NCBI GenBank assembly: GCA_004154925.1
Contig: QJNS01000029.1
Coordinates: 248,001 to 312,000 of the forward strand
From: Monosporascus cannonballus
Lineage: Eukaryota; Ascomycota; Sordariomycetes; Xylariales
Length of the DNA stretch: 64,000 nt
Reading direction: 5' to 3'
The translations under genes were made by a program, and so were the position numbers. Under the pieces are notes generated by a model. It did not search any database. It saw only the letters and a program-made list of their open reading frames with translations, and was not told the DNA's origin. Shown piece after piece: positions 1 to 45,601 of the stretch (position 1 is the stretch's first letter; every line of letters begins with the position of its first letter).

Positions 1-2940
1 ACCTAAAAAAAAATAAAATATAAGGAAAAAATAAGTATAAAAAATACGATATATCGTTATTATTATCAAAGCGAAATTAAGATAATTAAATAACGTTTTA
101 AAATAATAAAAATAATAGTTTCGAAAGTTAGAAGATCTGATTAATATATTATTATAATATTATTAATATAAGTAACTTTTTAAAAAGGAACTGGATACGA
201 AATTATTAAAATATAGCAAATGGGATTATAAAATAATTTTTAAAAAAGGATTTTCGACAAAGTTTTACCTTATTATAACTTTAGCGAAAATGAATTACGT
301 ATTTTCAAAAAATATTTAAAAAATCGATTATAAAAAGGATAAATTTAATATTCGAAGTTTTTAAAAGGACATCCGATATTTCTTTTATTAAAAAAATGAA
401 AAATTAAGATTTATAGTGAATTATTCATAACTGAACGATATTATTGTTAAAGATCGAATATTATTACTTTTAATTACGGAAATAAAAAACCAATTTTATA
501 AAGCCAAATAATTCATAATATTTGATTTTAAAACTAAATATACTTTTATTAAAATTAAAAAAGAATGCGAATAAAAAATAGCTTTTAAAACAATATACGT
601 ATTTTTTAAATATTTAATTACGCTAATAGGATTTACGAACGTATTAGTAGTTTTCCTGCAAATAATTAATTATGTATTACGAAAATACCTCGATATTTTC
701 GTTATATACTATTTCGATAATATTCTTATTTTTTCCGAAACGGAAAAGGCATATGTAAAATACGTTTATAAAACTTTTCAAATTTTATAAAACGTAAGGT
801 TATTTATTAATGCAAAAAGGAATTAATTTTATAAATAAGAAACAAAATATCTGAAATATATTATTATTCCGGAATATATTAGGATAAAGTTTAAGAAAAT
901 CGCTTTAATTATAAAATAAGAAATATTAACGATATTTAAAAAAGTATAGATATTTTTTAGATTTGCCAATTGTTATAGAAACTTTATTCGAAATTTGAAT
1001 AGGATAATTATATTTTTAATAAATTTTATAAAAAAAGTATTAAATAAATACCAAATACAAGAAAAGTATTTCAGGATATTAAGGATGCAATTATTAACGA
1101 GTTAATATTAATTATATATAATTTAAACAGTTCGGTTAAATTAAAAATTAATATTTCGGATTACGCGTTAAACGTAATAATCGGATAACGAAATAATTAA
1201 AATAAATTGCACCTTATTATATTTTTTTCGTATAAATTAAAAAAGCTGAACTGAATTACGGTATTCCAAATAACGATTTTATGGCCATTATTATGGCATT
1301 TTAAAGATTTAAGCATTTTCTAAAAGGAAGCTTATATTAAGTTAAAATTATACGGATTATTAAAATTTTACCCGATTTATTACGACTAAGAAATTTATAG
1401 GACGATAATTTCGTTATGTAGAAAAATTGGCGAATTTCGATTTCGTTATTATTTATAGAAAAGGCTTAAAAATAATAAAGTAAATACCTTAAATAAGTAA
1501 CCAGATTTCGAAAAAGAAATTAATTAAAATTAATTATATAATTTTCGATTTTATTATAAAAAGATATTTACGTTTATAACAAATTACGATAATTCGAGTA
1601 ATACTTTTAGATATGCATTAAAAGATTTAATAATATAATAATAATTTCCTAAAAAACCCAAAAACGCATAAAATATAAGTTTTAGAAAAATATTAAGAGA
1701 ATTTAATACGAAACATATACGAATATTAATTATACGGATATTTCGTAATTTATATAACCTTAAAACGGTTTTAACGTATATATTCCTTTTTTAAAATAAA
1801 AAGAATAATAAAAAAAGATATACGGTAATACGATATTTAAGTTAAAATACAGATTCGATAATATAAGCTATACGGAGAATTACCGTTATTATCAGTTATA
1901 AAGCGATCATAATATTTAATTTTATTCGATTTTATTATTAAATTCTTTAAGTTAAGAAATTTAATAATGGAAATATATTATAATAATATTTTCGTAATCC
2001 TCGACCGATTTACGAAATCTTCTTATTTTGCACTGTATTATAAGAATATAAATGTCGAATAAATAACATACGTTTTTTAAATACATTTTAAATATATACG
2101 GATTATTTATAAAAAATATTTTAAATAAACGATCGATATATGTATGTAAGTTTTGGCAAAGTTTAATAATATAAATCGGCTTAAATTATAAGTTATTTTA
2201 CGTATTTAAACTTTAAACAAATAAATAAACGAAACGAATAAATTAAGTTTCAAAAACTTATTTACAACATTATATTAATTACGAATAAAGCAATTCAGTT
2301 AAGAAATTATTAATTGCAAAATTAACTTAAAATACCAGTTATTATAAAAATATTAAGATAATATTTGTAAACGTAAATTTTTGTTTTATTCAAAAAATTT
2401 ATAAAAAAGTATAGGACGACGATCAAATTAATATTAAAGAAATCCTTATATTAAAATAATTTCGATAATTATATTAAAAAACAAAAACAGAATTCAAATT
2501 TATATAAAATTAAATAAGCAAATATTATAACCAGAAAAAGTTAAAAAAATTAATTTTCGAAAAAAAGAAAATAATTTTCCTCGTTACAAAAAACATTTAA
2601 ATAAAACGACCTAATAAACAATTTAATTTCAAATATATCGGTCCATATAAAACTATCAAAAGAATCTCAGAAAATAACTATTAATTAAAACCTTTACCAA
2701 AAATTAAATTTTATTTAGTTTTTTACGTTTTTGTATTCCAATTAGTAATAAATATAATTAAGGTATATACGGTATAAACCGATATAAAAATAAAAAACGA
2801 ATAAGCATACAAAGTAAAAAAAATTCTTTAACATACGAAAACAAAATAGATTTACCCAGTACCTAATTAAATAGAAAAAACATCCAAATTTTAAGAATAT
2901 TTAAAAACCCGCTAAAAACCTTATTAGCGCCCAGTACCTG
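1..2940 (+). pseudogene. gypsy pol remnant (RT, RNase H, integrase, chromodomain), copy A
   Basis: This was a polyprotein for reverse transcription and integration of the element. In frame one can follow the end of the pre-RT region, the RT palm with a damaged box (YFDN, second Asp to Asn), an RNase H stretch (near 1145-1180, KINISDYALNVIIG), the integrase core near 1970-2160 and the GPYKT.KRISENNY linker near 2640-2690. Many in-frame TAA/TAG codons make it non-functional. The start is cut by the window edge, so gag and protease cannot be judged. Confidence 0.85.
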
Positions 2941-3423
2941 TTAAAAAACTTTTACTAATAATGCCGAAATCGGCAAGGTCGAAAATTCTCCAATTATTAA
3001 ATAACTAATTTGTAAACTTTAAGTTGGACCAGTCGAAAAAAGGTACGGCTTTTGCCGTTATAGCCTTAGCGGCCTTTAATTCGGCCTATTTTTCTTAACG
3101 TTTTAACTTATCCAATTCCTCTAGGGATCGAAATTTACGAAATAACATACGTACTATACGGTCGGCCTATAATTTCTTTTATTTTCGAAAATGATAAACT
3201 TTAGTTTATATTTGTTCCGCTTTTTTCTGGCTTTCTTAAATTCCGTTTTAACCTTAAGATAATTGGAAACGAACTTTTCGAATTAAAAAGTAGAAAAACC
3301 GTTAACGTTATAAAGGTCTTAATTCCGCGTTACGTATTTTTCGCACCTGGAAAAATCCGACAAAAAAACACGATAAGATAATAACCCGCGACGAACATAA
3401 TAAGAACATATAGGCATATCCAT
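2940..3423 (-). pseudogene. antisense ORF of gypsy copy A, six-Cys (Zn2Cys6-like) protein remnant
   Basis: On the minus strand, from an ATG at 3423 (second ATG at 3417), one frame reads MDMPICSYYVRRG, then FSRCEKY, with Cys at two of the six expected positions. Tyr (TAY, the RIP product of TGY) sits at the other four. The spacing is Cx2C-x7-C-x9-C-x2-C-x7-C. Further on, a charged region holds SLEELDKL and AELKAAKAITAKA, and the C-terminal part reads FDWSNLKF. The frame ends close to the pol stop, so the two genes converge tail to tail. Homologous frames occur at the same place in copies B, C, D and E. The function is unknown. The Cys spacing suggests zinc binding, but that is inference. Confidence 0.65.
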
Positions 3424-3566: not shown

Positions 3567-3932
3567 TATTATGACTTAATGAGTTGCGGCCTTAAAGAGG
3601 ATCGCAATAAACTATTAAGCTATATAGGTTAAATTACGTAAAGGCTTAATAGGATCGATCGTAAAGCCTATAAAGCCAGGTTCGATAAGATTAATCGTAA
3701 AGTTTATAAAGCCAGGATCGACAGATTAAAAAAGTTAAATATAAAACATTTATTATTTCCATAATTTAAATAATTTTAGATTGCAACAGAATATCGTTAT
3801 CCAAGATACTTTTGGTATTACGAAACGTAATATAATTACTGTATTTATTATTCAGATTCCCACGATACTCCTGTCAACATAAACCCGTACGACTAAGATT
3901 TAATCGTTGGTTAAACCTCTTGGCTCGTTACG
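3567..3932 (+). repeat. 3' LTR of gypsy copy A
   Basis: It starts TATTATGACTTAATGAG (RIP form of TGTTATGACCTAA) and ends in a block related to GTTAAACCGCCTAGCTGTCACA. The shared gypsy block with GGTATTACGAAACGTAATA lies near 3813. It contains imperfect copies of ATCGTAAAG..TATAAAGCCAGG like the D LTR. It is preceded by a purine-rich stretch, GGGGCGAAAATTATGGAAAA, the likely polypurine tract. Confidence 0.85.
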
Positions 3933-6656: not shown

Positions 6657-7053
6657 TGTTACGACCTAACAGACTCAGGTCTCGGGAAACGGTCAGCCTT
6701 GACCGAAACAGGACTTAAGTGGGTTAAAGCACATAATTAGTACTTAGTCAGGAACTGCTAAGCACAATTAAGCGGTTGCTTAATTAAGTTTTGCTAAGTA
6801 CAATCGATTAATGCTGCTTAGTTAATAATTATTAAGTACGTAAAAAGAAAAAAAGTATATAGTTATATTTATTTTATATAGCGTAAATAATTTTAGCTTA
6901 TAACATTTACCAATATTAACCGTTTGTAATTAACACTTTGGTATTACGAAACGTAACCAAGTTTACTTTATTACTCCGAATCCCACGATACTTTTATTAA
7001 TATAAACCCGTACGATTAGGTTTAATAATTAGTTAAACCACCTAGCCATCATA
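6657..7053 (+). repeat. 5' LTR of gypsy B
   Basis: 397 bp, TGTTACGACCTAACAGACTC … CCACCTAGCCATCATA. The U3 part carries several copies of a GCTAAGCAC/GCTTAATTAAG-like motif (near 6755-6835) not found in LTRs of the other subfamilies. The 3' half, with GGTATTACGAAACGTAA near 6940, is common to all gypsy copies here. Confidence 0.93.
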
Positions 7054-10000: not shown

Positions 10001-12540
10001 TATCGGCAATTGAACGATATTATTATTAAGAATTAAACGTTATTACCCCTAATTACAGAAATAAAAAACCGATTTTATGGAATTAAATAGTTTATAATAT
10101 TTAATTTTAAAAATAAATATAACCTTATTAAAATTAAGAAAGGATATGAATAGAAAATAATTTTCAGAACGAAATACGGATTGTTTAAATATTTGGTTAC
10201 ATTAATGGGATTTACGAATATATTAGCAATTTTTTAACGGATAATAAATTATGTATTATAAAAATACCTCGACATTTTTGTTATATATTATCTTAATAAT
10301 ATTTTCATTTTTTTAAAAACGGAAAAAATATATGCAAAATACATTTATAAAGTTTTTTAAGTTTTATAGAACGCAAAGTTATTAATTAATGCAAAAAAAA
10401 GTTAATTCCATAAATAAAAAATGGAATATCTGGGACATATTATTACCTTAGGATATATTAGAATGGACCCCAAAAAAGTTACTGCAGTTACAAAATGGGA
10501 AATACCAAATACGGTTAAAAAGGTATAGGCATTTTTTGGATTCGCCAATTATTATAGGAAGTTTATTCGAAATTTTAATAAAATTGCCTTACCCCTAATT
10601 AATTTTATTAAAAAAAAAGGAATTCAAATAAACGCCAGAAATAAAAAAGACGTTTTAGGAAATTAAGGATATAATTACTAGCAAGCCAATATTAATTATA
10701 TACAATCCGAATCGTCCCGTTAAGCTAAAAACCGATATTTCGGATTATGCGTTAGGCGCAATAATCGGACAACGGGATAATTAAGGTAAATTACACCTTA
10801 TCGCATTTTTTTCGTACAAATTAAAGGGAACCGAGCTTAATTACGGTATACCAAATAAGGAGTTTATGGTTATCGTTATGGCATTTAAAGAATTTAGGCA
10901 TTTCTTAAAAGGAAACCTTTATTAGGTTAAGGTTTATACGGATTATCAAAATCTTATCTGTTTTATTACGACCAGAGAACTTATAGAACGATAATTGCGA
11001 TATACAGAAAAAATGGTAAATTTCGATTTCGTTATTATTTATAGAAAGGGTTTAGAAAACGGCAAAGTAAATACCCTAAGTAAACGACCAAACTTCGAAA
11101 AAAAATTGGTTAAAATTAACCATACAATTTTTGATACTACCATAAAAGGATATTTACGCCCGTAATAAATTGCAATAATTCGGGCAGCACCCTTAGATAT
11201 ATATCAGAAAATCCAACAATACAATAACGGTTTTCTAAAAAACCAAAAAACGGACAAAATATAAGTTCCAAAAAAATATTAAATAGATTTAATATAAGAT
11301 ATATACGAATATCAGCTATATAAATATCCAGGAATTTACAAAACCCTAAAACGATTTTAACGTACGTATTTTTTTCCTAAGATGAAAACGATGGTTTAAA
11401 AGGTACGACGATAGTATAACCTTTGTAATAAAGCCAAAACGTAACAATATAAGCCTTATGGAAAACTATAACCATTACCGGTCTCAAAGAGACCATGGGA
11501 TTCGATCATTATGGATTTTATTACTAAATTTCCCTTATTTGAAAATCCAGTAACAAAAGTATATTACGATAACATTTTCGTTATCGTCAATCGATTTACA
11601 AAGTTTTCCTATTTTTTACCATATCATAAAGATATTAATACGGAATAAATGGCATATATTTTTTTCAAAAATATTTTTAACATATACAAATTACTAATAA
11701 AAATTATTTTAAACAAAGGATTAACCTTCGCGTCTAAGTTTTGGCAAGGCCTTATAACATAAATCGGCCTAAATCATAAGTTATTTAGCATATTTAGACC
11801 CCAGATAAATAAATAGACAAAACGGCTAAACCAAATATTGGAGGTATACCTATAATATTACATCAATTATGAACAAAACGATTAGGTTGAAAAATTACCT
11901 GTTATTTAATTAGCTTATAATATTAATTATTATAAAAACATCAAAATAATACCATTTAACGCAAATTTCGGTTTTATTCCAAAAGTTTACAAAAAAGTAC
12001 GCGACGACGGTCCAATCAATATCAAAATAATCCTTACGTCGAAGTAATTACGGCAGTTGCATTAAAAGATAAAAATAAAACTAGAATTCGTACGGAATCA
12101 AATAAGCAAATATTATAACAAAAAAAGGTTAAAAGGATTAATTTTCGAAAAGGGAAAGATAATTTACCTCGTTACCAAAAATATTCAAATAAAAAAACCT
12201 AGTAAAAAATTCAATTTCAAATATATCGGTCCATACAAAATTATTAAGAAAATCTTAGAAAATAATTATTAGTTAAAACTTTTACCAAAAGTTAAATTCT
12301 ATTTAATTTTTTACGTTTTTTTATTCGAATTAATAGCAAATATAATTAAGGTGCGTACGGTATAAAATAACGTAAAGGTGGAAAACGAAACGGTATACGA
12401 AATAAAGAGAATTTTCGATATGCGAAAATAAAACGGATTTACCTAGTACCTAATCAAATAAAAAAAGCACCCGAATTCCGAAAACACCTGGGAACTTATT
12501 AAGAACTTTATGAATACCTAACGCCTATTAAAAAATTTTC
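7100..12540 (+). pseudogene. gypsy B gag-pol with chromodomain, RIP-inactivated
   Basis: Gag is readable from about 7390 (PESFNRTSTKL…) and ends in a CCHC zinc knuckle at 8094-8135: C-YN-C-GKKG-Y-KVYK-C, with His replaced by Tyr. The protease box at 9183-9230 reads VNYGALGGNY; the catalytic Asp has become Asn. RT lies around 9800-10450 with YLNN at 10289-10300. RNase H lies around 10725-11110 (TDISDYALGAIIGQ). The integrase core lies around 11540-11770 (DRFTKFSYF; GLTFASKFWQ). The GPYKIIKKI.ENNY linker is near 12230. The chromodomain is near 12390-12520 (VYEIKRIFD … HPNSENTWE), which would direct integration to heterochromatin in chromoviruses. Whether gag and pol were one frame cannot be told. 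Confidence 0.92.
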
Positions 12541-13017
12541 ACCAATAACGTCAGGGACGCCGGCGGTAAAGGCATCCTAATTAATAACTTCGAATGCAGA
12601 AAAGGCAAATTAATCAAAGGATTTAAAAGGCAAAAAAAGGGCAGTAATAAAAGCCTTTACGGAAACTTATTTTTGGCGCTTTTGCTTTTTTAATTCTTTT
12701 AAGGATTGCAGTTCTTACTAAACCATTTTTATATTTTTAAAACGAAAAAAAACTTTTTACTTGCGTAAACGGATTAAACGAATAATGGTTTCGTTTATTT
12801 CTTGCTAATAACGTTTTTAAAGCTCCAAAAAACGCTTTTCGGCAAACGTTTTTTTACGTTCGAACTGTTAGTTTTCGGCATAGATGTTCTTTAGCAAAAA
12901 AAGCGGAACGCCGTTCCCGTCATAAAAAGAATTACGTTTAATATAAGCCTTACATTTTAAAACGTTTTCCATTATTTCGTATTTCCACCCCTTAAAAAAG
13001 CATAAGGAGTACGGCAT
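12510..13017 (-). pseudogene. antisense ORF of gypsy B, Zn2Cys6-like signature
   Basis: From an ATG at 13017 on the minus strand a frame of about 170 codons runs toward the pol stop. It begins MPYSLCFFKGWKY, followed by LKCKAY and FYDGNGV. Reading the four TAY codons as former TGY gives C-x2-C-x6-C-x8-C-x2-C-x6-C, which is the spacing of fungal Zn2Cys6 clusters; two of the six are still Cys. Then follow a Lys/Glu-rich helix (KKTFAEKRFLEL), RLIRLRK, a second charged block (LQSLKELKKQ) and a C-terminus reading FTAGVPDVIGENF. Interrupting codons are TAA/TAG only. The frame is also open upstream to about 13121, so the true start is uncertain. The function is unknown. Confidence 0.7.
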
Positions 13018-13182
13018 AATTTCGAAACTAAATTTTTCAAAAATAAAAAAAAAGTTCTGATAACGAACGGTCGAAGAAAAATCCTGACGACGAGATTTAA
13101 TAACGCAACCAGATATTGTGAAAAAAAATGATACTTACAGAAAAAAAATTTTCGGGGCGAAAATTTGTGGAAAGGAAAATCG

Positions 13183-13578
13183 TATTACAACCTGACAAAT
13201 TTAGGTCTCGGGAAACGGTTAGCCTTAACCGAAACAGGACCCAAATGGGTTAAAGTACGTAACTGGTGCTCAGTTAGGAACTGCTAAGCACAACTAAACG
13301 GTTGCTTAATTAAGTTCCGTTAAGCATAATCGATTAGCGCTGCTTAATTAATAATTATTAAGCATATAAAAAGAAGAAAAGTATATAGTTATGTTTATTT
13401 TATATAACGTAAATAACTTTAACTTACAATATTTATTAATACCAACCGTTTATAATTAACATTTTGGTATTACGAAACGTAACCAAGTTTACTTTATTAT
13501 TCCGAGTCCCACGATACTTCTGCCAACATAAACCCGTACGACTAGGTTTAATAGTTGGTTAAACCGCCTAACTGTCAC
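13183..13578 (+). repeat. 3' LTR of gypsy B
   Basis: 396 bp, TATTACAACCTGACAAATT … CCGCCTAACTGTCACA, near-identical to the 5' LTR except for RIP-type differences. It is preceded by GGGGCGAAAATTTGTGGAAA, the likely polypurine tract, and followed directly by the TTAGG duplication. Confidence 0.93.
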
Positions 13579-23200: not shown

Positions 23201-25540
23201 TTATTTAAGTATTTGGTTATCTTAATAGGATTTACAAATGTATTAATAAATTTTTAGCGGATAATAAATTATGTATTACGAAAATATCTCGATATTTTCG
23301 TCGTTTGCTATCTCGACGATATTTTTATTTTCTTAAAGATAAAAAAAGCATATATAAAATACGTTTATAAAGTTCTTTAAGTTTTATAAGACGCGAAATT
23401 ATTTATTAACGTAAAAAAAAATTAATTCCATATATAAAAAAATAAAATATCTGGGATATATTATTACCTTAGGATATATTAAAATAAATTCTAAGAAAAT
23501 TGTTACAATTACAAAATACTAAATGTTAATAATATTTAAGGAAATATAAGTATTTTTTGGATTCGCCAATTATTACAAGAAATTTATTCGAAATTTTAAC
23601 AAAATAATTATACCTTTAATAAATTTTACGAAAAAAAAGTTTAAATAAACGCCAAATATAAAAAAAGTATTTTAAAGTATTAAGGATACGATTATTAACG
23701 AATTAATATTAATTATGTACGATTTAAATTATTTCGTTAAATTAAAAACCGATTTTTCGGATTACGTATTAAACGTAATAATTGGATAATGAAATAATTA
23801 AAACAAATTATACCTTATTATATTCTTTTCGTATAAATTAAAAGGAGCCGAATTTAATTACGGTATTTTAAATAAGGAATTTATAATTATTATTATGGCA
23901 TTTCGAAAATTTAAGTATTTTCTAAAAAAAATATATATTAAGTTAAAATTTATACGGATTATTAAAATTTTATCCGATTTACCATAATTAAGATATTTAT
24001 AAAACAATAATTAAAATACGTAAAAAAATTAGCGAATTTCGATTTCGTTATTATCTATAAGAAAAAATTAAAGAACGGTAAAGCAAATGCTTGAAGTAAA
24101 TAATTAAACCTTAAAGAAAAATTGGTTAAAATTAGCCATATAATTTTTGATACTATTACAAAAAAATATTTACGTTTACGACAAATTACGATAATTCGGG
24201 TAATACCTTATGATATATATTAGAAAATTTAATAACATAATAATGGTTTTTCAAAAAACCAAAAAATAAATAAAATACAAGTTTTAAAAAAAATATTAAA
24301 AAAACCCAATACGAAAAATATACAAACATTAATTACATAAATATCCAGGAATTTACAAAACCTTAAAACAACTTTAACGTACATATTTTTTTTTCAAAAT
24401 AAAATTAATAATACAGAAAATTATACGGCAATACGATATTTACGACAAAATAAAGGTTCGACAATATAAATCATACAGAAAATTACAACCATTATTAATC
24501 GTAAAACGATTATAATATTTAGTTATATTTAACTTTATTATTAAATTTTTTATATTAAAAAATCTAATTACGTAAATATATTACGACAATATTTTCGTAA
24601 TCGTCGACCGATTTACGAAATCTTTTTATTTTTTACCATATTATAAGGATATAAATGCCGAATAATTAGCACATATTTTTTTCAAATATATTTTTAATAT
24701 ATACGGATTAGTAATGGAAATTATATTAAATAAAGAATTAATATTTATATTTAAATTTTAGCAAAGCTTAATAATATAAATTAAATTAAATTATAAATTA
24801 TTTAACGCTTTTAAATTATAAATAAATAAATAAATAAAACGAATAAATTAAACCTTAAACATTTACTTATAATATTATATTAATTACGAACAAAATAATT
24901 AAGTTAAGAAATTATTAATTACATAATTAGCTTATAATATTAATTATTACGAAAACATTAAGATAATATTTACGAACGCAAATTTTGGTTTTATTCCAAA
25001 AGTTTATAAAGAAATATGCGATAACGATTTAATTAATATCAAAATAATTTTTACGTTAAAATAATTACGATAATTATATCAAAAAATAAAATTAAAATTA
25101 AAATTCGTACAAAATTAAATAAATAAATATTATAACCAAAAAAAGGTTAAAAAACTAACTTTCGAAAAAGGGAAAATAGTTTTTTTTTGTTATAAAAAAC
25201 ATTTAAATAAAAAAACCTAACAAAAAACTTGATTTCAAATATATTAGTCCATATAAAATCGCCAAAAAATCTTAGAAAATAATTATTAATTAAAAATTTT
25301 ACCAAAGGTTAAACTTTATTTAATTTTTTTATGTTTTTTTATTAGAATTAACAGCAAATGTAATTAAAATATATATAATATAAGAAAATGTAAAAATAAA
25401 AAATAAATAAATATACGAAATAAAAAAATTTTCGACATATAAAAACAAAACGGATTTACTTAATACCTAATTAAATAAAAAAAATACCCAAATTCCGAAA
25501 ATACCTGGGAATCCGCCAAAAATCTTATTGGCGCCTAGCG
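20300..25540 (+). pseudogene. gypsy C gag-pol with chromodomain, RIP-inactivated
   Basis: Gag is readable from about 20330, with a knuckle near 21085-21130 (KCFNCGKIGYKVYEY), where His and the last Cys have turned to Tyr. The protease box near 22193 reads VNCGALGGNY, again Asn for Asp. The RT box DIFVVCYLDDIFIF is intact at 23291-23332. RNase H lies near 23745-24080, the integrase core near 24590-24750, and the chromodomain near 25410-25520. In-frame TAA/TAG codons throughout make it dead. It is more heavily mutated than B across pol, yet keeps both catalytic Asp of RT by chance. Confidence 0.9.
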
Positions 25541-25559
25541 CTTATTAAAGAATTTTTAT

Positions 25560-26115
25560 TAATAACGGCAGAATTACCCGAAATAATAATATTTTAATTT
25601 ATAAGATTTACGGAAAGAAACCTTTAATTTACCGTATTCTAATTAATAACGTCCACTTTTCTTAAGGCCTAAACCGTAATTACGGATTCCGATTCTAATT
25701 ACGTAAGGTTATTGGAATTATTTAAGGATTAAAAAGTACGATTAACAAATTTCGTACCCTGAAATTAATAATATTAACGTTAATAACGTATATAAAAAAA
25801 ACGCGCAAAAACCTCGGATAAAAGTTTTTCGGCTATTAGCTTTTTTTTTTAATTTTTTCGATTTTGCAATATAACGATTAATTATAAAAACAGGGATTTT
25901 TATCCCGTTATACGAACAACCTTGACAGATATATTCCTTATAACGAAAAACCTTATTTATTATTTAATAATTAAGCTGCCGAACAAAATAGAAAAAAAAA
26001 TATTACGTTAAAACTTTCGAATTTAATTAAATTAACTAAAGCAAATTGCTGTTCGGATTTGCGAAAACGACGTTTAGATATACCGAAAAACATATTAAAA
26101 GTATGTAAAAAAAAC
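25560..26115 (-). pseudogene. antisense ORF of gypsy C, Cys-rich protein remnant
   Basis: In the same place as the antisense frames of A, B, D and E. On the minus strand MFFGISKRRFRKSEQQFALV is readable from about 26095, then after a frame change a CxxC pair in YICQGCSYNG (near 25915-25930). A Lys-rich stretch near KIEKIKKKKLIAEKLL follows, and a tail reading ISGNSAVINKNSL. It is more decayed than the B copy; the first half of the six-Cys cluster is blurred. It was assigned by position and by the CxxC and basic regions. Confidence 0.5.
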
Positions 26116-26166: not shown

Positions 26167-26516
26167 TATTACGACCTAATAAATTACGGTTTCTAGAAAC
26201 GGTCGCAACAGGAAGGCCAAAAAAACTATATGGATTAGGTTACGTAATAAATTACCAACTTATTAATAGTAAGCTAATAAGCCGGATTACCAACTTATTA
26301 GTAATAAGTTAACTAAAGGAGAAAAATATATACGTTTATTAATTTCATAATTTAAATAACTTTAGTTTACAATAATAATTCGTTACCTAAGGCACTTTTG
26401 GTATTACGAAACGTAATACGTTACCGTATTTATTGCTTAGATTCCCACGATACTCCTGCTAACATAAACCCGTCGACTTAAGGTTTAATAGTTGGTTAAA
26501 CCGCCTAGCTGTCACA
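26167..26516 (+). repeat. 3' LTR of gypsy C
   Basis: 350 bp, TATTACGACCTAATAAATTA … CCGCCTAGCTGTCACA, equal in length to the 5' LTR. It is preceded by a purine tract (AAAAAAAAGGAGATCG) and followed by the second ATCTA. Confidence 0.93.
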
Positions 26517-27756
26517 ATCTATTAATAGGACTTTAAAGACCCTTGGCGTTAAGAGATAATACTAATGAACCTTTTTTAAGGGCTCAGCGACCGATGAACG
26601 AGGGCCTTTCGTATAAATAATTATACTGGGCTCCGTACCTGTCGAACCTAGCCGAAGGTCCATATTAATGGGACCATCAGTTGCACCACTTATCAGACCA
26701 CTTACGGTCACTTTCGTCAGTTATCCCTTATAGCTACAGTTGATTTTCCATGTATTTAAGGAGGTTTCGCCGTCCTTTCTTTCCAGCTAGGACCTCTTGG
26801 AGGGTAGAGCCTGATAATAAAGCTTCTTCAATTGTATATGCTTCAGTGTGCGATGTCAGGGTCTCATAGTACCCGAATAGCTAAGAAAAAGGCAGTTATT
26901 AAAGGTGGTTTAATCATTGTTTATCCTAAGAGCTACTTTCTAGGACGCTCCTATGCCTTTCGCTCTGTATTTCACCATTTCCCCCGATATTTGGTGACTC
27001 AGGTTACGCTGCCTCGGAAGAGACTGCCACCTCGTGAATCCGAAGACCCCAAATATAAATTGGAATGTCCTAATTGCGGGCATGCGACAGGACTCCCTAG
27101 GGCGACTTGGGGACTGTGCCTGAAGTTTGCAGGTCTCTTTAACGCCTTGTAGGATATATGATGAAGCCAGGCGCTAGGTTGCACAACATAAGGCCAGCTG
27201 CAGATTATATGTCTTTTAAGAGACGAAAAAGCCAGGCTTCTAAAGGGGGGTGTACTGCTAGAGGGTATGCTATCCACTCTCTATATAGCCACCAATTGTA
27301 TCACATAACCAGCTACACCGGGCTCGATCAGCATCCGATTCTAATTTCCCAGTTGCCAATTCCCGACCTCGCCAAATGCCCCTCCCGAACAAATGTGTCT
27401 CTAAGCGATGAAAGCTAAGCAGCACGAGTAGACCAGAGTAACGATATGTGGCACTGAACGCTTGCATGGTTCGTGGGCGGTAGCCGGCTTCCTATGATAG
27501 TAATAAAAACTTGTAACTCAGCCCAGCAATAGCTCATTAGCAAGTTTCTCGTTCGCAAGACGACGGGATGGATCCTGAGAAGGGTATTAGACTGTCCATT
27601 GTCCCTCGGAGAACGAATAAATCGCTGCGGCTCTTTGCAAGCCTTTAAATCCATGTCCGCTGCCATCTGAACGCGCCCAGCGATATTCAATTCCATGATG
27701 CTGCATACCTGTAACAGCTTGACAGTATAACCCCCTAAGAATCGGGAGAACATCTC
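26517..27756. other. GC-balanced host DNA, no assignable gene
   Basis: Ordinary-composition sequence between gypsy C and the end of the NIT2-like gene. Several open frames of 65-112 codons exist on both strands (for example 26832-27152 plus, 27415-27753 minus). None shows a domain I recognise and they overlap each other. One plus-strand frame has ECPNCGHATG, which resembles half of a zinc ribbon, but no partner CxxC. The 3' UTR of the NIT2-like gene must lie at its right end. I can neither assign nor exclude a spliced gene or decayed gene here. Confidence 0.5.
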
Positions 27757-28824
27757 TCAGTTGTCGTCCTTGGGTATATCCGGCTCATCGAAGTTGATCT
27801 TCCCCTGGCTGACGTCCGGGTAGACGTCGAACCTCCTCTGGGTGTAGAGGGGGATGCTCTTCCGCGTCTCCTCGATGCAGGCGGGGTCGAGCTCGCAGCT
27901 GACGATGCCCTCCTCCTCACCGGCCTCGTCGAGGACCTTGGCCAGGGGGTCGACGACCATGCTGTGGCCGTAGGCGACGTAGGGCCCGCCCGTATCGCGG
28001 GCGGGGCTGCACATGGCGACGTAGACCTGGTTGTCCATGGCGCGGGCGCGGGCCAGCAGACCCCAGTGCAGCGGGCCCGTCGTTGTGTTGAAGGCGCCCG
28101 GGTACACAAGGGCGAAAGAGCCGCGCCGCGCCGCGATGGTCGCCAGCTCTGGGAACCGCACGTCGTAGCAAATGGCGACGCCGACGCGGCCGTACCCCGG
28201 CAGGTCCACGATCGTCACCTTGTTGCCCGGGGACAGCGTGTCGCTCTCGCGGAACCGGATCTTCCCCGGGATGTCGATGTCGAAGAGGTGAACCTTGCGG
28301 TGCGTCGCGAGCAGCGCGCCGTCGGGCCCGAATGTCAGCGACGTGTTGTAGTATTTCCCCTCTCTCCTCCGCTCCTCGGGGTCCGAGCTTTCCGGGTTGT
28401 GCGGGTCCGCTTCCGGGATGGACCCCCCGATCAGGTACGTCTGGGTCTCGGCGGCCATCGCGGACAGCGCGTGGTAGGAGGGGGACTGCTCCTTGGTCGG
28501 CGGGCTGGGCAGCAGGGTCTCGGCGTAGGTGGGGAAGAAGTCGGTCCCGTAGGGCGAGTTGAAGCATTCGGGCAGGACGATGATCTTGGCGCCCCCGCGG
28601 GCGGCCTCGAGGACCTTTTGCCTCGCGCGGGCGAGGTTGGCGGCCTTGTCGCGCCCGCTAGCCAGCTGGACGCAGGCAAGCTTCACGGGCTGCTTGAGCA
28701 GCGGGCCATTCGATGAGGTGGCCATCGCGCAAGATAGTGGCTTAAGACTCGGAACTGAGTATGGGCCTCTGGACAACACGGATCGGGAGAAGAGGTTCAA
28801 GGTCCTGAGCGAAAAAACTATCAT
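27757..28824 (-). CDS. omega-amidase / Nit2-type nitrilase-superfamily amidohydrolase
   Basis: 355 residues in a single exon. The family hydrolyses alpha-ketoglutaramate and alpha-ketosuccinamate to the keto acids plus ammonia, closing the glutamine/asparagine transaminase pathway. The Glu-Lys-Cys triad is complete: E86 in [11 protein letters not shown]177 in [15 protein letters not shown]219 in [13 protein letters not shown]. The Nit2-specific stretch [22 protein letters not shown] is also present, as is SPARD. Compared with animal Nit2 (about 276 aa) it has an acidic insert near residues 141-156. The first ATG (28824) adds 33 residues rich in Ser/Arg without acidic residues ([16 protein letters not shown]…), plausible as a mitochondrial presequence. 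The ATG at 28725 (MATSSNG) would give a 322-residue cytosolic form. The upstream in-frame extension to 28893 begins with GTG and is not used here. GC-rich wobble positions and no RIP stops show a living gene. Confidence 0.93.
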
Positions 28825-29668
28825 GGTGTACGTATCTTGTAACACCGGCAATTGGGCGCCGACAAGGTCCAGTGTTCTTTCTTTGGTCCCCACCGTTGCA
28901 AACCCTGGTTTAACGTTTTTTTAGAGGGGTAAGCTCGGCATAGGAAAACTGCATTTTATTAAATTACTCGTGAGAGTGTGTTATTGGATAGTTACAAGTA
29001 ATCTACGGATGTCTTGGTATTGCTTCGGTGAAGCTTAACCTGACGGCGATGGCTCATCTTATCTGCTTAAGCATGTAGAAATTCGTTTCCTTTTTTATTT
29101 AGCTTTAAAATATATTAAAAACGCAGACACTAACAGCTAATAACGACAACATGTTGCACCCGTTTCCCACCCGCGTTTCTCCCATGTATCGAGGCCAAAG
29201 TGGACTTTTGCCATATATAGTTAGCGTTGACGCAGCTCCCTATCATTGCTGTGCTCCCTTCGCACCCGGAGAGATAGCTTGATCACAGACTGATGATAGG
29301 TAACAGTCTCACTGGAAAAGTCGTGAGCTGGGTGAATGTCACTTCTTCAAGTTAAATCCGGTGCGATATATCCTTAATCAAAGTTTGAGTGTTCTTCTAC
29401 ACGTTTGGACGAGTTGCTGTCGATGCGCGTCGGATGCGAGTTGAGATGTAGTTGCAGGGCTGGGAAGCCTCACACGATTGGGGCGCACCGGTAAGCTTGT
29501 TTAGCACTAGCCTTACATTAGTAGTGCTGACGCTCCTGACCCGTTGCTGTGCTCCTTCGCCGTTTGACTTCCCGACTCCAGGTTCTTTTGCCCAGGTGGA
29601 GTATTCCGTGTCATTGTGATTGGATCTCTACTAAGATAGCTTCAAACTCGGCTTGCACACCTACACCA
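28825..29668. promoter_or_regulatory. divergent intergenic region between the NIT2-like gene and the HET pseudogene
   Basis: About 840 bp of un-RIPed DNA between divergently oriented genes, so it should hold both promoters. A TATA-like TATATAG lies near 29215. An imperfect direct repeat of about 38 bp around TTGCTGTGCTCC(C)TTCGC occurs near 29226-29263 and again near 29525-29560. I see no other recognisable site. Confidence 0.45.
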
Positions 29669-32242
29669 ATGTATCGCCCTTTAGACTCTGCTAGCGGTGA
29701 GATTCGGCTGTTGGTGATTTATCCCGCCAAGAAACTAGAGGATCCGCTAGTAGGCTCCATCCAACACACCACCCTCACATCCCGTCCCCAATATGAAGCC
29801 CTATCATATGCTTGGGGCAATAAAGGGGGGGGAAGGACATTATCATCGACGGCGAGAGGCTCGGCGTCTTCGAGGATCTCGAGGTTGCTCTCCGGCGGTT
29901 AAGGAAGCCCAAGGAATGGCGGACCTTGTGGATCGACGCCATCTGCATTAACCAGGACGACTTCACCGAGCAGCAGGAGCAGATCCCGCTCATGCACAAG
30001 ATCTACCAGCAGGCGCAGCAAGTCTGTATCTTGCTCGGCGAGTCGACCGGCACGTCGGGTATCGCCATGCGCCATATCAACAAGATACGATACGGCCCCT
30101 GGCGCGAGGGTCTCTGGAGGGGTCTGGAAGCCGACGAGTTCCACCATAAGTATTCTTGGTTCGGAACCAGGGAAATGCTCAAGGTCATACGTAGCAAGGC
30201 CTCGGTATACGGGATGTCGAGCCTGGTCGAGGAACTGGTGCACGGCGAGATCCGCGAGTTGCTCGCCCGGCCTTGGTGGAATCGGGGGTCGGCGGTGCAG
30301 GAGGCCGTCGTGGCCAAGAAGCCGCTAATCATGTGTGGCCAGAAACAGCGCTGTGGGAGTGCATCGGCCAAGCCACCAAACGGGTGCGCGGCGGAGGTGT
30401 CTCCTTGGAGACCGCTTCCCTGTTCGGCCAGCGCGCGTAGGCTCGACGTATACTTTTCCTGGCGAGACATATTTGCAAATTTCTGCGTATCGGGATTGTC
30501 AGAAACCAGTACCGCTCTTCCGGCTGCTCTACGACTTCCGCAATCTGAGCTGCGCCGACCCTCGTGACGGGATTTACGCTTTCCTAGGCCTAACGGCCGA
30601 AACGACAGATATCAAGGTCCAGCCAGATTATACGGCCGATATCGCTGCCGTGTACTGTGTCTTTGCTCACCAGGCAATCGAGAAGACGAGGACGCACGAC
30701 GTGCTGAACTGCAAGCGAGAATGGAGGGAGTCTCCCAACGGTGTGGAGACGGAAGGGACGGTTCTGATATATAGCGTAGAGCATCAGTCGCGTTATCACG
30801 ACATGCAGGCCATGCTGATTGACAATGGGACGGAATCGGGGCCCAGGGTTGGATGGGCGAGATTGCTACAAGAATGGGAGCCTCTCGACGAATATAGCGA
30901 AGACATGGTTGGAATGGTGAAAAGGAAGGAGTACCTTTTCGACCACGCCACAAGGACGCGACATGAAGAGAGCCCCCTGAAACATCAGCCTCCTTCGCTC
31001 GCTGAGCACAAAACCCAGCACAGGAAGGCGCCTGCCGAGGGGGGGCTGAGGTGGTGGGATAATCTTGGTCGGGCGCAACTGACATACCGTCCCGGAGAAT
31101 CCGCAGTCACACTCTCCAATGAGACAGCCCTGGAGCACGACTTCTCGACCCTGCCGTCTTGGGCGTCAAACTGGATGGCCAGCTCACCGAGAGACCCTGA
31201 ACTCTTCCTCCGCCACTTTGACCGTGGCGGTATCGAGGGCTTCTGCTTCACCAGGTGGCACGAAGCAAGCGTTATTGCCGACGAAGCCAAGGGTGGAGAT
31301 GCTTTGATGCTCGAAGGGATGATGTTCGACGACATTGAACAAATGACACTCCCGTGGCACCCAGTCGATCAAGCTATTCCGCTCTCTAGAGACTTCCAGG
31401 ACTTCGATATCTGGGAAGCACTGGCTGTTGCCCAGCAGGAGAACTGCCCGTACCAGCACCTCCAAGGTGCCAGAAGGCGAGCTTTCTACGGACTGTAACG
31501 GCCAACTTCTTCCCCGATCCGAGCACAGACGACTTTCACGCCGATTGGTCTTCCTCCTCTCCTGAAACGATGGCCAAGAAGAAAGCCCTTTTTGAAGCCT
31601 TTATCAACCGCATTGAGTGGTATAGAGCGGATACCCCGAAATTTGTTTCACTCGGCATTGCCGAATCTGTAAAACTCGCGACGTACTCTTCCAGTCTGGA
31701 AGAGAAGATGTACGCCTACTACCACATGTTGCTGTCCGCGCTCTCCCCTCCGACCACAGAGGATGACGACGCCACTCCAGGCTCACTATCTGAAGTCTCG
31801 AGCCTGGATGACGCCATTTCCCAGATCACCCTGATGGAGCCGGTGCTGATGGAGGATGCCACGAACTTCAAATTCCACACATTCGTCATGGAGCAGTGGA
31901 AGGACCGCTGGCGCATGACCAAAAAACAGATACAGAATCAGGGGTCAGTGTACTTGCAGTACGAAGAGCTGTGTCGGCGGATTCACGATATCTGTCGCGA
32001 TCGGGCGCTATTCGTCACCAAGCGCAGCTATATGGGGCTTGCGCCGTGGAACGCGAAGGTCGGGGACCGGGTGTGTAGTTTGAAAGGAGGGAAGACCCCG
32101 TTCCTCGTGCGAAGGGTAGGGCGCTCTGATGAGGAGCGATACAAGCCTAGTCGGCGAGGCGTATGTCTATGATGAGAAGAAGGGCTTGCCCCTGGGTCGG
32201 GACCTTGAAGCGGATACCTGGCGGGGAATCCGGCTCGTGTAA
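29669..32242 (+). pseudogene. HET-domain (heterokaryon incompatibility) gene broken by frameshifts
   Basis: Starts MYRPLDSASGEIRLL at 29669. HET proteins trigger cell death when genetically different hyphae fuse. Family blocks are clear: YEALSYAWG (29792-29818), LWIDAICINQ (29926-29955), PWW…VQEAVVAKKPLIMCG (to about 30340), DPRDGIYAFLGL (30557-30592), and a C-terminal YMGLAPWNAKVGDRVC (near 32031-32078) ending …TWRGIRLV at 32242. They lie in different frames. Shifts occur at a G8 run (29825-29832), near 30340, between 30430 and 30470 (with TAG at 30438-30440), near 31490 (stop 31496-31498), and near 32142. Joined, they cover roughly 850 codons, a normal length for this family. The damage is mostly small indels, not RIP transitions. 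Sequencing error could explain the G8 shift but hardly all five; introns do not fit the junctions. Confidence 0.88.
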
Positions 32243-32373
32243 GGTTTGATCAAGCCGAGACGCTGGCCACACTACAGCCAAAACGCAATACCAGCCGCAG
32301 TTTGCACAGATCGCGCCATGTGAGTGTGCTCAAAAACTGGCTGCATGGTGGCCTGAGCTATTGAAACAATTGC
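32243..32373. other. island flank downstream of the HET pseudogene
   Basis: Un-RIPed DNA that probably holds the former 3' UTR. It ends with ATTGC (32369-32373), the target duplicated by copia-2; the same host sequence resumes at 49684. Confidence 0.7.
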
Positions 32374-32540
32374 TGTCAGATATAGGGGACCTCAGTTGTG
32401 TTGTTGTATTCCGTTAAGTTGTAGGCGCTCTCGCACACGTACAACTCTAAGTAGCTTAGCCACGGAACATATATGAGCCGATCAGTATGGGACTTTTCCG
32501 TATATGGGGAACGCTCCGCACCCCCCAACTAGCTGATACA
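32374..32540 (+). repeat. 5' LTR of copia-2
   Basis: 167 bp, TGTCAGATATAGGGG … CAACTAGCTGATACA, hardly touched by RIP. It includes CACGGAACATATATGAGCCG with a TATA-like core. It differs from its partner at 49519-49683 mostly by transitions and one 2-bp indel near the 3' end. Confidence 0.78.
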
Positions 32541-36800: not shown

Positions 36801-39270
36801 AAATAAAACACTAATTTTACGAAACTAAATAATTTACAGTATTCAGTTTTAAAAATATATATAATCTTATTAAAATTAAAAAAGAATACGAATAGAAAAT
36901 AGCCTTTAAAACGAAATACATATTATTTAAATACTTAGTTACGCTAATAGAATTTACGAACATATTAATAACTTTCCAGCAGATGGTTAATTACGTACTA
37001 CGAAAATACCTTGATATTTTCGTCGTTTATTATCTTGACGATATTTTGATTTTCTTAAAAACGGAAAAACTATATGTAAAATACGTTTATAAAATTCTTT
37101 AAGATTTATAAGACATAAAATTACTAATTAGCGCAAAAAAAGTAATTTTACGTACAAAAAGTGAAATATCTGAGACATATTATTATACTAAAACATATTA
37201 GAATAAACCTTAAAAAGATTGCGATAATTACAAAATGGCAAACGCTAATTACGATCAAAAAAATATAGGTATTTTTTAAATACGTTAATTATAATAGAAA
37301 GATTATTTAAAATTTCAACAAAATAATTATACTTTTAACGAATTTTATAAAAAAGAGCAAAAATGTTCAAATAAACGTTTAAAATAGAAGAAGCGTTTTA
37401 GGATCTTAAGGATACGATTACTAGCAAACCAATATTAATTATGTACGATTTAAACCGCCTCGTTAAATTAAAAACCGATATTTCGAATTACGTTTTAAGC
37501 GGAATAATTGAATAACGAAATTATTAAGGTAATTTATATTTTATTATATTTTTTATATAAATTAAAAGAAATCGAGCTTAATTACGGTTTTTTATATAAA
37601 AACTTTATGGCTATTATTATGGTATTCTAAGAGTTTAAGTAGTTCTTAAAAGGAAATTTACTCCAGCTTAAAGTTTATACGGATTATTAAAATTTTACCG
37701 GATTTATTACAACTAAGGAACTTACAGAACGATAATTTCGTTACGCAGAAAAACTGGCGAACTTTAATTTTGTTATTATTTATAAAAAACGTTTAGAAAA
37801 TCACAAAGAAAACGCGTTAAGCAAGCGACCAAACCTCGAAAAAAGATTTGTCAAAATTAGCTATACAATTTTTAATACTATTATAAAAGGATATTTACAC
37901 TCGGGATAAATTGCGATAATTCGGGCCGTACCCTTTGATATGTATTAGAAATTCAAGCAATATAACGAGGGTTTCCCAAAAACTAAAAAATGGACAAAAT
38001 ACAAATACCAGAAAAATACCGAAAAGGTTTAATACGAAACATGTACGAATATTAATTACATAAATATCCAGAGATCCACAAAACTTTGAAACGGCTTTAA
38101 TACATATATTCCTTTTTTAATATAAAATTAATAGTACAAAAAATCATATAATAATACGATATTTACGCCAGAATAAAAGCTCGACGACATAAACCTTACG
38201 GAACATTACAGCTATTACTAGTTATAAAACGATTATGGTATTTCATTATATTCGACTTTAGTATTAAGCTTTTCATATTAGAAAATCCAGTTACGGGAAT
38301 ATATTACGATAGCATTGTCCTGGTTATTAGCGGATTTACGAAATTTTCATATTTTTTACCGGATTACGAAAATACAAATGTCGAACAAATAATATATATA
38401 TTTTTTAAATACTCTTTAATATATATGGATTACTTCTGGAAATTATTTTAAATAAAGGATTAATATATACATTTCAATTTTAATAAGGCCTTATAATATA
38501 AATCAGTTTAAATTACAAATTATTTCACGCTTTTAAACTATAAATAAATAAATAAATAAAATTTACAAACTAAACCTTAAAAGTGTATTTAGGATATTAC
38601 ATTAATTACTAAGAAACTAAATGGGTTAAAATATTATCTAATATTTAATTAACTTTTAATATTAATTGTAATAGAAATATTGAAACAATATTTACAAACG
38701 TAAATTTTGGTTTTATTCCCGAAATTTATAAAAAAGTATATAACGATAATGAAATTAATATTAAAGTAATCCTTACGTTAAAATAATTATAATAGCTATA
38801 TTAAAAAATAAAAACAGAATTATAATTCGCACGAAATCAAATCAATAAGTATTACAACTAAAAAACGTTAAAAAATTAATTTTCGAAAAAAGGGAAATAA
38901 TTTTTATGTTACTAAAAATATATAAATAAAACGACTTAATAAAAATTTCGATTTTAAGTATATCGGTCCATACAAAATCGCCAAAAAAATCTTAGAAAAT
39001 AATTACCTATTAGAGCTTCTACTAAAAGTCAAATTTTGTCCAATTCTTGACATTGGTTTATTCGAATTAATAACAGATATAATGAAGGTACATATAGTAT
39101 AAGACGATATAGAAAGAGAAAACAAATAAATATATAAGATAAAAAAAATCCTCGATAAACGAAAAGAAAACAAATTAATTCAATACCTAATTAAGTGGAA
39201 AAATATCCGGATTCCGAAAACATTTGGAAATCCCCCAAAAATCTTATTAACGCCCAGCATTTATTAAAGA
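33850..39270 (+). pseudogene. gypsy D gag-pol with chromodomain, RIP-inactivated
   Basis: Gag is traceable from about 34090. The protease box near 35925-35970 is badly damaged. RT has an intact VVYYLDDILIF at 37022-37054. RNase H lies near 37460-37800 (LKTDISNYVLSGII). The integrase core lies near 38300-38470 and the GPYKIAKKILENNYLLEL linker near 38970-39020. The chromodomain follows near 39130-39240. Numerous TAA/TAG codons interrupt it. A short minus-strand open frame at 36266-36502 lies opposite and is not a gene. Confidence 0.9.
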
Positions 39271-39746
39271 ACTTCTACTAGTAACGGCGAGGTTAACAGG
39301 GTTATAGGTTCTCTAATTAATAAACGACCAGTTAGTGGATTTAAGATTGGACCAGTTAAAAAAGAACGCGGCTTCTGCCGATATGGCTTTGGCGGCCTCC
39401 AGTTCGACCTATATTTCTTAACGTTCCAACTTATCTAACTCCTTTAGGGACCAAAGCCCGCGGGATAACATATGTATTATACGATTGGCCTATAATTTCT
39501 TTTGTTTTTGAAGCCGGCGAACCTTGGCCTACGTTTATTCTGTTTTTTTTAGCTTTTGTAAATTCTGTTTTAATTTTAAAATAATTAAAAACGAATTTTT
39601 TAAGCTGAAAAATAACGAAACCGTTAATATCGCAAAAGCCTTAATTCCGCGCCATATATTTTTCGTATCGGAAAAGATTTAACGAAAAAAACATAACAAA
39701 ATAATACACCATAACGAACATAATACAAATAAAGAGGCATAATCAT
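39270..39746 (-). pseudogene. antisense ORF of gypsy D, six-Cys protein remnant
   Basis: On the minus strand from ATG at 39746: MIMPLYLYYVRYGVLFCYV, the counterpart of MPICSYYVRRGLLSY in copy A. After a frameshift come FRYEKYMARN and GFCD (CxxC with both Cys now Tyr, then a retained Cys). The C-terminal half is well preserved: AKVRRLQKQKKL, HMLSRGLWSLKELDKLER, VELEAAKAISAEAAFFF and WSNLKSTNWSFIN. This charged, probably helical region is nearly the same in copy A. The function is unknown; it converges on the end of pol. Confidence 0.65.
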
Positions 39747-44300: not shown

Positions 44301-44960
44301 CGAACAACTTTTCAAAAAGAAGCTTCATGAAAAATTATTAAAATATAACGAATAAAATCATAAAATAATCCTTAAAAAAGGATCTTTGATAAAGTTTCAC
44401 TCTATTCACAACCTTAACGGAAACGAACTACGTACTTTCAAAGAATACCTAGAAAATCGGTTGCAGAAAAAATAGATTTAACCTTCGAAATTACCGGCAG
44501 AATATCTTATATTTTTCGTACGGAAAAAAAAAGAAAAATTAAAAGTTATGGTTTATTTTCGATAGCTAAACGATATTATTATTAAAAATCGAATACTATT
44601 ACCAAAATAACCTAACAAAAAACTCGATTTTAAATATATCGGTTTATACAAAATCGCCAAGAAAATCTCAGAAAACAATTATGAATTAAAATTTCACCAA
44701 AGATCAAATTTTATATACTATTTTATGTTTTGTTATTGAAATTAATAACAGATATAATCAAAATACATACGGCATAAAATAATATAAAAATAAAAACGAA
44801 TAAGTTTACGAAATAAAGAAAATTTTCGATATACGAAAACAAATTAGATTTACTTAATACTTAATAAAGTAAAAAAGTACCCAAATTCCGAAAATATCTA
44901 AAAACCTGCTAAAACTCTTATTAGTACTTAACGCTTATTAAAAAGATTTTACTAGCAATA
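41330..44960 (+). pseudogene. gypsy E gag-protease-RT start fused to chromodomain by deletion
   Basis: Gag is readable from about 41600 (PEFFDRTLIKL…) and is split at 42138-42534 by a solo LTR. The knuckle region near 42700-42750 reads KYFNCNKIRHKAV.C. The protease box near 43742 reads INYGTLGGNYIMP. The RT start is near 44290-44600. The junction near 44604 joins it to the linker and the chromodomain near 44790-44900. With RT palm and integrase gone, it could only have moved with help from another element, and RIP-type stops have since ended coding. Short minus-strand open frames at 42665-42910 and 43057-43269 are opposite gag and not genes. Confidence 0.88.
42138..42534 (-). repeat. 397-bp gypsy-type solo LTR inserted in gypsy E gag, TSD taatt
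   Basis: Ends TGTGACAAGCTATGCGG … GTCGGGTCGTAACA, flanked by TAATT at 42133-42137 and 42535-42539. It is in minus orientation relative to E: the common gypsy R/U5-like half (GTTTAACCAATTATTAAACC, ACGTCTCGTAATACTAAGG) is at its left. The U3 part is GC-rich and hardly RIP-mutated, with inverted repeats TGATCACTG-GCTTAG-CAGTGATCA (42432-42455) and AGTGAT-TACG-ATCACT (42394-42409). This U3 is unlike those of A-E, so it is a further subfamily. Confidence 0.93.
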
Positions 44961-45435
44961 ACGGAATTACCAAAAATAATAGCATCCCAATTAATATTTT
45001 TAACAAACCAAACGGTATTACCGATACCAAACTGGTTCATAGGATTAACGGGAGGAACTAGGGCGGCTATGGAAGTCTTGGCGATGGCTTGCTCCTGGTA
45101 TTTTTACTTTCTAACTCTTTTAATAATTACAATTTTCGTTATATTATTGTATTCTTTTTAAGCGAAAAAAGGTTTTATATTTCCGAAAATATAATAAATA
45201 TATAATATAATTATTTATCTTTTAGTAAAACCGTTTTTGCAATTCTAAAAAACGTTTTTTTACAAAAACCTCCTTTTATTCCAGATATTAATTCTTGGTG
45301 CAAATAATTTTTAAAAAAGAATAAAAATGCCGGTTTTATAATAAAGATATTTACATTTAATGCAAACTTTATATTTAGAAACAATTTTATTATGTCGCAT
45401 TTTTAACACTTAAAAAAACTTAACAAGTACGGCAT
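44960..45435 (-). pseudogene. antisense ORF of gypsy E, Cys-rich protein remnant
   Basis: Starts MPYLLSFFKC at 45435 on the minus strand, in line with MPYSLCFFKG of copy B. A retained Cys follows three residues later. After a frame change KVCIKCKYLYYKTG gives the second CxxC, and after another KRFLELQKRF matches EKRFLELQKR in B. The open frame also reads upstream (TISDYIIKGYRQ) as in B. At least two small indels break it, besides RIP stops. It is kept although the pol core of this copy is deleted. Confidence 0.6.
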
Positions 45436-45601
45436 AACTTTAAAATCAAAATTATTAAAAATAAAAAGCAGATTTTGCCGACAATTAACCCAGGAAATCT
45501 GACGATAACCTTTAATAATATAATCCGATATCGTGAAAAATTGGTAACATTTATTAAGAAAGTAAAACCTTAAGGGTAAGATTTAGGGAAAAAGGAAATC
45601 G

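Follow-up and report, generated by a model that had tools for sequence, protein, structure and literature searches.

We analyzed a window of 64,000 nucleotides (nt) of Monosporascus cannonballus DNA (C234:248001-312000, from an assembly of 88.8 Mb in 618 contigs), focusing on the retroelement gypsy B and on a gene that lies on its antisense strand between pol and the 3' long terminal repeat (LTR). The window is AT-rich, with a G+C content of 19-32% per 2-kb step except at 26-32 kb, and is depleted in CA and TG in the pattern left by repeat-induced point mutation (RIP). Comparison of the window with itself revealed five gypsy-like stretches that are related to one another and are here called A to E. 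The two LTRs of gypsy B differ at 55 of 388 sites, by transitions only (23 A/G, 32 C/T). Just 24 of the 55 differences are in the classical CpA context, and the decay is thus not of the strictest RIP kind. A target-site duplication is not evident in the immediate flanks of the element.

A preliminary description had placed the antisense frame at positions 12510 to 13017. The frame itself stands, but its limits do not, as the gene starts 99 nt (33 codons) further upstream (Table 1). The start codon at 13116-13114 is ATG in 29, ATA in 23 and another codon in 12 of 64 distinct copies, and most database homologues begin at the position matching this start. The stop codon at 12510-12508 is TAA in all 19 copies covering it. 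Within the frame (minus strand, codons starting at 13299-3k), Cys or Tyr occupies six positions with the spacing 2-6-8-2-6, and the charged motifs EKRFLEL, RLRK and SLKELKKQ are located downstream of this segment, both as first described. The preliminary description took Tyr for a RIP-changed Cys; the two residues alternate at five of the six positions. Among the 40 nearest copies, positions two to six are Cys in 29/39, 22/40, 18/40, 8/39 and 19/40, respectively, the remainder being Tyr and one Phe. The first position, in contrast, is Tyr in 39 of the 39 nearest copies covering it. In this genome, Cys is found there only in the distant copies L072, L083 and L084; every database homologue with coverage of the position (35/35) has it as well.

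The window copy (C234:260514) is interrupted by nine interior stops (six TAA, three TAG). That interruptions are confined to TAA and TAG, as initially stated, is correct for this copy but not for the family, in which TGA occurs at the Trp-12 column in 6/40 copies. In a tally over the 40 copies, 286 of 292 internal stop cells fall into columns with Gln or Trp in at least one other copy, with the reservation that distant copies align poorly beyond residue ~115. The stops are mostly of the RIP type. The genome search with 508 bases of the gene gave 43 rows at 40 places, and all 40 were read in register. No indel is present in the aligned part of 22 of these 40 copies; among the 13 nearest, ten have none, two (L003, L011) have a 1-nt deletion and one has a 9-nt deletion.

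Table 1. Features of gypsy B and of related elements in the window (positions are those of the window).
Feature	Position	Strand	Remarks
Antisense gene, RIP-degraded	12508..13116	-	202 codons followed by TAA; ATA at start position in window copy
Six-Cys/Tyr zinc-cluster-like segment	12922..13011	-	Spacing 2-6-8-2-6; from window read and homologue cysteines
Charged region, probable coiled coil	12667..12900	-	Limits approximate; corresponds to long helix of P0001 model (residues 71-141)
Chromodomain, pol C-terminus	12396..12545	+	Convergent with antisense gene; Pfam PF00385 above cut-off (X-masked piece)
Tail-to-tail overlap of antisense gene and pol end	12508..12548	.	41 bp, if pol ends at first TAA past chromodomain
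5' LTR of gypsy B	6657..7044	+	388 nt by alignment with 3' LTR
3' LTR of gypsy B	13183..13570	+	388 nt by alignment; 66 nt from antisense start
U3 box, GGYCT..RAAACGGT type, candidate regulatory site	13204..13220	+	3' LTR, upstream of antisense gene
Degraded antisense homologue, gypsy E	44921..45534	-	Best domain E 7.7e-16; split over frames; limits approximate
Degraded antisense homologue, gypsy A, matched part	2927..3423	-	C-terminal part E 1.3e-7; one-base frame break
Degraded antisense homologue, gypsy C, matched part	25531..25999	-	Two frames; E 2.1e-8; window scan E 3.6e-4
Degraded antisense homologue, gypsy D	39253..39679	-	C-terminal part E 2.5e-6; N-terminal part just E 0.37

Since RIP makes transitions, selection on the antisense protein was assessed by counting transversions, using no consensus and scoring a column if the rarer class was present in at least two copies. 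Over residues 2-113 of the 40 copies, the first, second and third codon positions have 3, 4 and 28 transversion columns out of 112, with pairwise transversion rates of 0.0125, 0.0124 and 0.109, respectively. In the 13 nearest copies, the corresponding counts over residues 2-150 are 2, 0 and 6 of 149 columns. At codons that differ by transversion in the 40 copies, the mean BLOSUM62 score is 1.52 in the antisense frame, compared with -1.12 to 0.42 in the other five frames. Substitutions are thus distributed as expected for a protein gene on the antisense strand, which was under selection while the elements multiplied. The preliminary description named non-RIP stops or frameshifts in all lineages, or a lack of purifying selection, as grounds against its proposal. 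Checked copy by copy, frameshifts affect a part of the copies as well as the window elements A, C and D, but not all lineages. We are nearly certain that the element has a protein gene in this frame.

Intact relatives of the encoded protein are found in the databases. The read of copy L088 matched the protein P0001 (E 3.3e-15, 33% identity); the read of L005 as query gave no homologue. P0001 as query retrieved 36 proteins including itself. The named sources among them are Apiospora, Verticillium, Cordyceps, Corynascus, Staphylotrichum, Thyridium and Pyricularia, all of which we take to be Sordariomycetes. The Zn2Cys6 cluster (Pfam PF00172) has a spacing of about C-x2-C-x6-C-x(5-12)-C-x2-C-x(6-9)-C. 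This spacing is seen in the database homologues, and in the window copy only as Cys/Tyr. The exact form C-x2-C-x6-C-x8-C-x2-C-x6-C is present in 32 of the 36 homologues, which bears out the Zn2Cys6-like signature first noticed on the antisense strand, and a relaxed six-cysteine form in 35/36. The first three cysteines are found in 35/35 homologues covering them and the last three in 36/36. Three of the 36 proteins carry the UniRef label "Zn(2)-C6 fungal-type".

Profile and structure comparisons point weakly in the same direction. Zn_clus is the Pfam family most often listed for the homologues (30/36 at E up to 10), and one protein, P0029, passes the 21-bit gathering cut-off with 22.0 bits, the sole pass among eleven homologues scored singly. 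All 12 realigned structures that were listed are zinc clusters, albeit with low scores, and the model of P0001 shows a long helix (residues 71-141) after the cluster segment. As for other families, NCBIfam gave none common to more than four of the 36 homologues, and Transposase 28 (PF04195) was not listed for seven reads from the window genome, P0001 and ten more homologues; the table for all 36 shows 25 of 72 families. The antisense protein very probably has a Zn2Cys6-type cluster, and a zinc-cluster fold followed by a coiled coil is supported, not proved.

The antisense frame was described as convergent with pol, and pol indeed lies on the other strand at each of the 90 loci that were retrieved for the gene, which comprise 69 distinct antisense sequences. 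The C-terminal piece of pol matches the Pfam Tf2-1 SH3-like and Chromo domains, both above cut-off. The Chromo match runs to its last residue, and the following codon (12546-12548) is TAA in 13/13 copies. We took this first TAA after the chromodomain as the end of pol; invariance alone is no proof, as other stops are invariant too (TAA at 12567 in 13/13; TAA or TAG at 12363, before the chromodomain, in 13/13). The aligned ends of pol and the antisense gene overlap by 25-34 nt in the 74 listed loci with both ends aligned. The conserved tail of the antisense frame, also part of the first description, is present but lies partly opposite pol.

Such a layout is not new. Zhao et al. in 2011 (Virology 417:248) reportedly described brtn in Boty-like gypsy elements of Botrytis cinerea, an account known to us via citing papers. 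According to passages in these papers, Boty-like elements have brtn as an extra gene, which is in antisense orientation and located after pol and before the 3' LTR (PMC8365987, PMC4227169, PMC7264820), and a Monilinia transcript is mentioned as resembling truncated Pol and BRTN (PMC5987419). Gypsy B matches the Boty-like elements of those passages in being a gypsy element of an ascomycete, in having a chromodomain in gag-pol and in carrying an additional antisense gene at this location. An ascomycete host is also suggested by the RIP-like decay and the named homologues. The two genes are likened by layout alone; the citing passages mention no zinc or cysteines for BRTN, and the name brtn-106 may mean a shorter product. 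In plants, the antisense open reading frames of Retand, Grande (gene23), RIRE2 and PvRetro13 are likewise located between pol and the 3' LTR, are kept across copies and have been suggested to be regulatory, according to the relevant passages (PMC11963269, PMC7264820). They differ in their domains, which are TRP28, SMC and others and not zinc clusters; the Retand antisense proteins carry TRP28 domains and are predicted to bind DNA (PMC11963269). Retand also differs in being a non-chromovirus with a pol-LTR region of 2.9-6.6 kb (PMC11963269), whereas the genes overlap here. The initial view that an antisense gene falls outside the standard gypsy plan is not supported as stated, since gypsy elements with an antisense gene at this location have been published in fungi and plants. 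In the passages concerned, a review from 2020 states that the function of gypsy antisense genes is not known and that clear similarities to proteins in databases had not been described (PMC7264820). By title and opening of the abstract, we found no report of zinc clusters encoded antisense in LTR elements in the open-licence literature, a body of work outside of which most subscription journals fall. The layout is already published; the zinc-cluster and coiled-coil identity of such a gene we did not find in print in this literature.

The Cys spacing and the order of cluster and coiled coil resemble fungal Zn2Cys6 regulators of the GAL4 type, to which weak sequence and structure matches exist. 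Unlike these regulators, the antisense protein has no large domain behind the coiled coil, is encoded by a retroelement and, by eye, is poorer in basic residues where the cluster's first half is concerned. The account that we consider moderately likely is that the accessory gene of this Ty3/gypsy chromodomain element encodes a Zn2Cys6-like dimeric DNA-binding regulator of the element. Transcription antisense to pol would proceed from at or near the 3' LTR. The product would have ~190-200 residues and consist of a short N-terminal part, then a Zn2Cys6-like binuclear cluster and finally a long coiled coil for dimerization, as in the DNA-binding region of GAL4-type proteins but lacking the large domain behind. 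The dimer would most likely bind DNA, probably at sites in the LTRs of its own element, and the outcome would be an adjusted transcription of the element or an influence on where the element goes. That the protein regulates transcription through DNA is about an even matter.

Several observations weigh against this account. Zn_clus scored below the cut-off for P0023 (19.5 bits), P0014, P0020, P0024, P0006 and P0001, was not listed at E up to 0.5 for P0005, P0017, P0026 and P0032, and Pfam gave no match for the seven RIP-damaged reads of the window genome. Foldseek returned nothing at E 0.001, with unrelated proteins in two of six rows. The realigned structures stem from VIA-align, which took 27 chains preselected by Foldseek, and the root-mean-square deviation is 6-11 Å in nine of the 12 rows. 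In sequence score, the zinc ribbons of ribosomal eL43/L37a are approximately equal to LAC9. A profile search of PDB sequences yielded coiled-coil and other proteins and no zinc cluster; in the PDB sequence searches the best E was 0.0025 (the helical stretch against MtrB), all others being at least 0.05. Scans of viral and prokaryote contigs, with one peptide pattern each, confirmed no relative. The absence of a protein from a structure list was given no weight. In addition, a third-position excess is absent from the 14 codons opposite pol (0, 1 and 0 of 14 columns), and the copies are related by descent, so that a p-value for selection is indicative only.

The best-placed alternative is that the protein binds zinc and is dimeric, does not bind specific DNA and serves the replication cycle, for example in nuclear entry or in guiding integration together with the pol chromodomain. 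The antisense gene ends against the end of this chromodomain, the DNA-contacting fold is weakly supported, with zinc ribbons about as good in sequence, and for plant antisense products, of which one is nuclear, passages of the 2020 review discuss a role as accessory factor (PMC7264820). However, the Cys spacing, the most-listed Pfam family and the realigned structures all lead to DNA-binding zinc clusters, and we regard such a role as rather unlikely. Considerably less probable is that the antisense transcript itself matters, forming double-stranded RNA with the element mRNA that feeds silencing, with the protein being secondary. The convergent, overlapping layout makes double-stranded RNA possible, and the idea is raised in a passage of the 2020 review (PMC7264820). 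It is at odds with amino-acid selection over residues 2-113, which are outside pol, and with the existence of an intact relative that shares 33% identity. As fungi have many Zn2Cys6 genes, capture of a host regulator gene by an ancestor of the element would have been easy, yet its persistence as useless passenger cargo is, if anything, slightly more improbable, given that the gene has been retained in copies of as little as 41% identity and in each of the five window elements and that selection is seen in the 40 near copies. Finally, a frame open by chance or as a shadow of selection on the pol sense strand, for which one could cite the last ~13 codons opposite pol with their lack of an antisense-type pattern, is ruled out to a negligible residue by the excess of transversions at antisense third positions, by the location of most of the gene beyond the pol stop, by the lower scores of all sense frames and by the existence of intact proteins.

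Returning to a DNA-binding regulator, a retroviral analogy may be drawn. HBZ of human T-cell leukemia virus type 1 (HTLV-1) is expressed antisense from the 3' LTR and is a dimerizing basic leucine zipper (bZIP) protein of the DNA-binding type. The layout and logic are similar, while HBZ is a bZIP protein of a retrovirus, and homology is not claimed. By this analogy, a clade of fungal chromodomain gypsy elements might possess its own antisense GAL4-like factor, expressed from the 3' LTR and binding conserved boxes in U3, and might have arrived independently at a self-control like that of HBZ; we put this forward as a speculation that is rather doubtful as a whole. The plan of zinc cluster and coiled coil makes the role of gypsy antisense genes directly testable in fungi, with intact database proteins available for such tests. 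If the account is true, fungal retroelements bring along their own transcription factor, and some hypothetical proteins labelled "Zn(2)-C6 fungal-type" in fungal annotations are products of element genes and not host regulators.

The LTRs contain candidate sites. A 13-base pattern with at most two changes marks the beginning of the LTR in 63 of the 64 distinct regions (L087 being doubtful), where the conservation of the 13 columns is by construction; LTR columns 22-38, outside the pattern, are conserved as well. The U3-box pattern, which was derived from these columns and hence from the same data, is found in 42/64 distinct regions compared with 0.02 expected in single-base shuffles. The sequence TTACGTAA, presumably a bZIP-type site, is present in 45/64 distinct LTR-side regions (1.2 expected), and in 43 of these 45 its distance to the start of the antisense gene is 135-158 nt. 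In gypsy B, the sequence reads GTACGTAA. Conservation of the boxes across regions is in part due to shared descent. As candidate sites, the boxes may serve transcription in the antisense or the sense direction, or the protein. The palindrome TTACGTAA is also found at window positions 3634, 19959, 26240 and 39953, which fall into LTR stretches belonging to A, C and D. An inverted repeat CGG-N10-CCG occurs in both LTRs of gypsy B (6690-6705 and 13216-13231); as a general LTR target it was rejected, being present in just 5/64 distinct regions with 0.6 expected.

The gene is widespread in the genome. With one X-masked read as protein query, the 150 best of 1903 candidates gave 150 matches, at 41-100% identity, with one place split over two rows. 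All five elements of the window hold the antisense gene or a degraded relative, represented mainly by the C-terminal half in A, C and D. In the antisense form of gypsy A (window 3220-3423), the Cys/Tyr spacing by eye is 2-7-9-2-7, with one additional residue in three gaps. The two halves of the gypsy A gene lie in different frames. An intron or programmed frameshift in this family was dismissed, as 71 of 97 half-pairs, picked by eye from two listings of 150 matches where both halves appeared, are in frame. Of these 71, 69 are exactly 204 nt apart; the other frames hold 9 and 17 pairs, and the distance in A itself is 203.

Between the RIP-degraded repeats, the window includes a G+C-rich island (26500-32500; 56% G+C at 28-32 kb). 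It contains an open carbon-nitrogen hydrolase frame on the minus strand (27757-28893) and a HET-domain frame on the plus strand (29926-30567).
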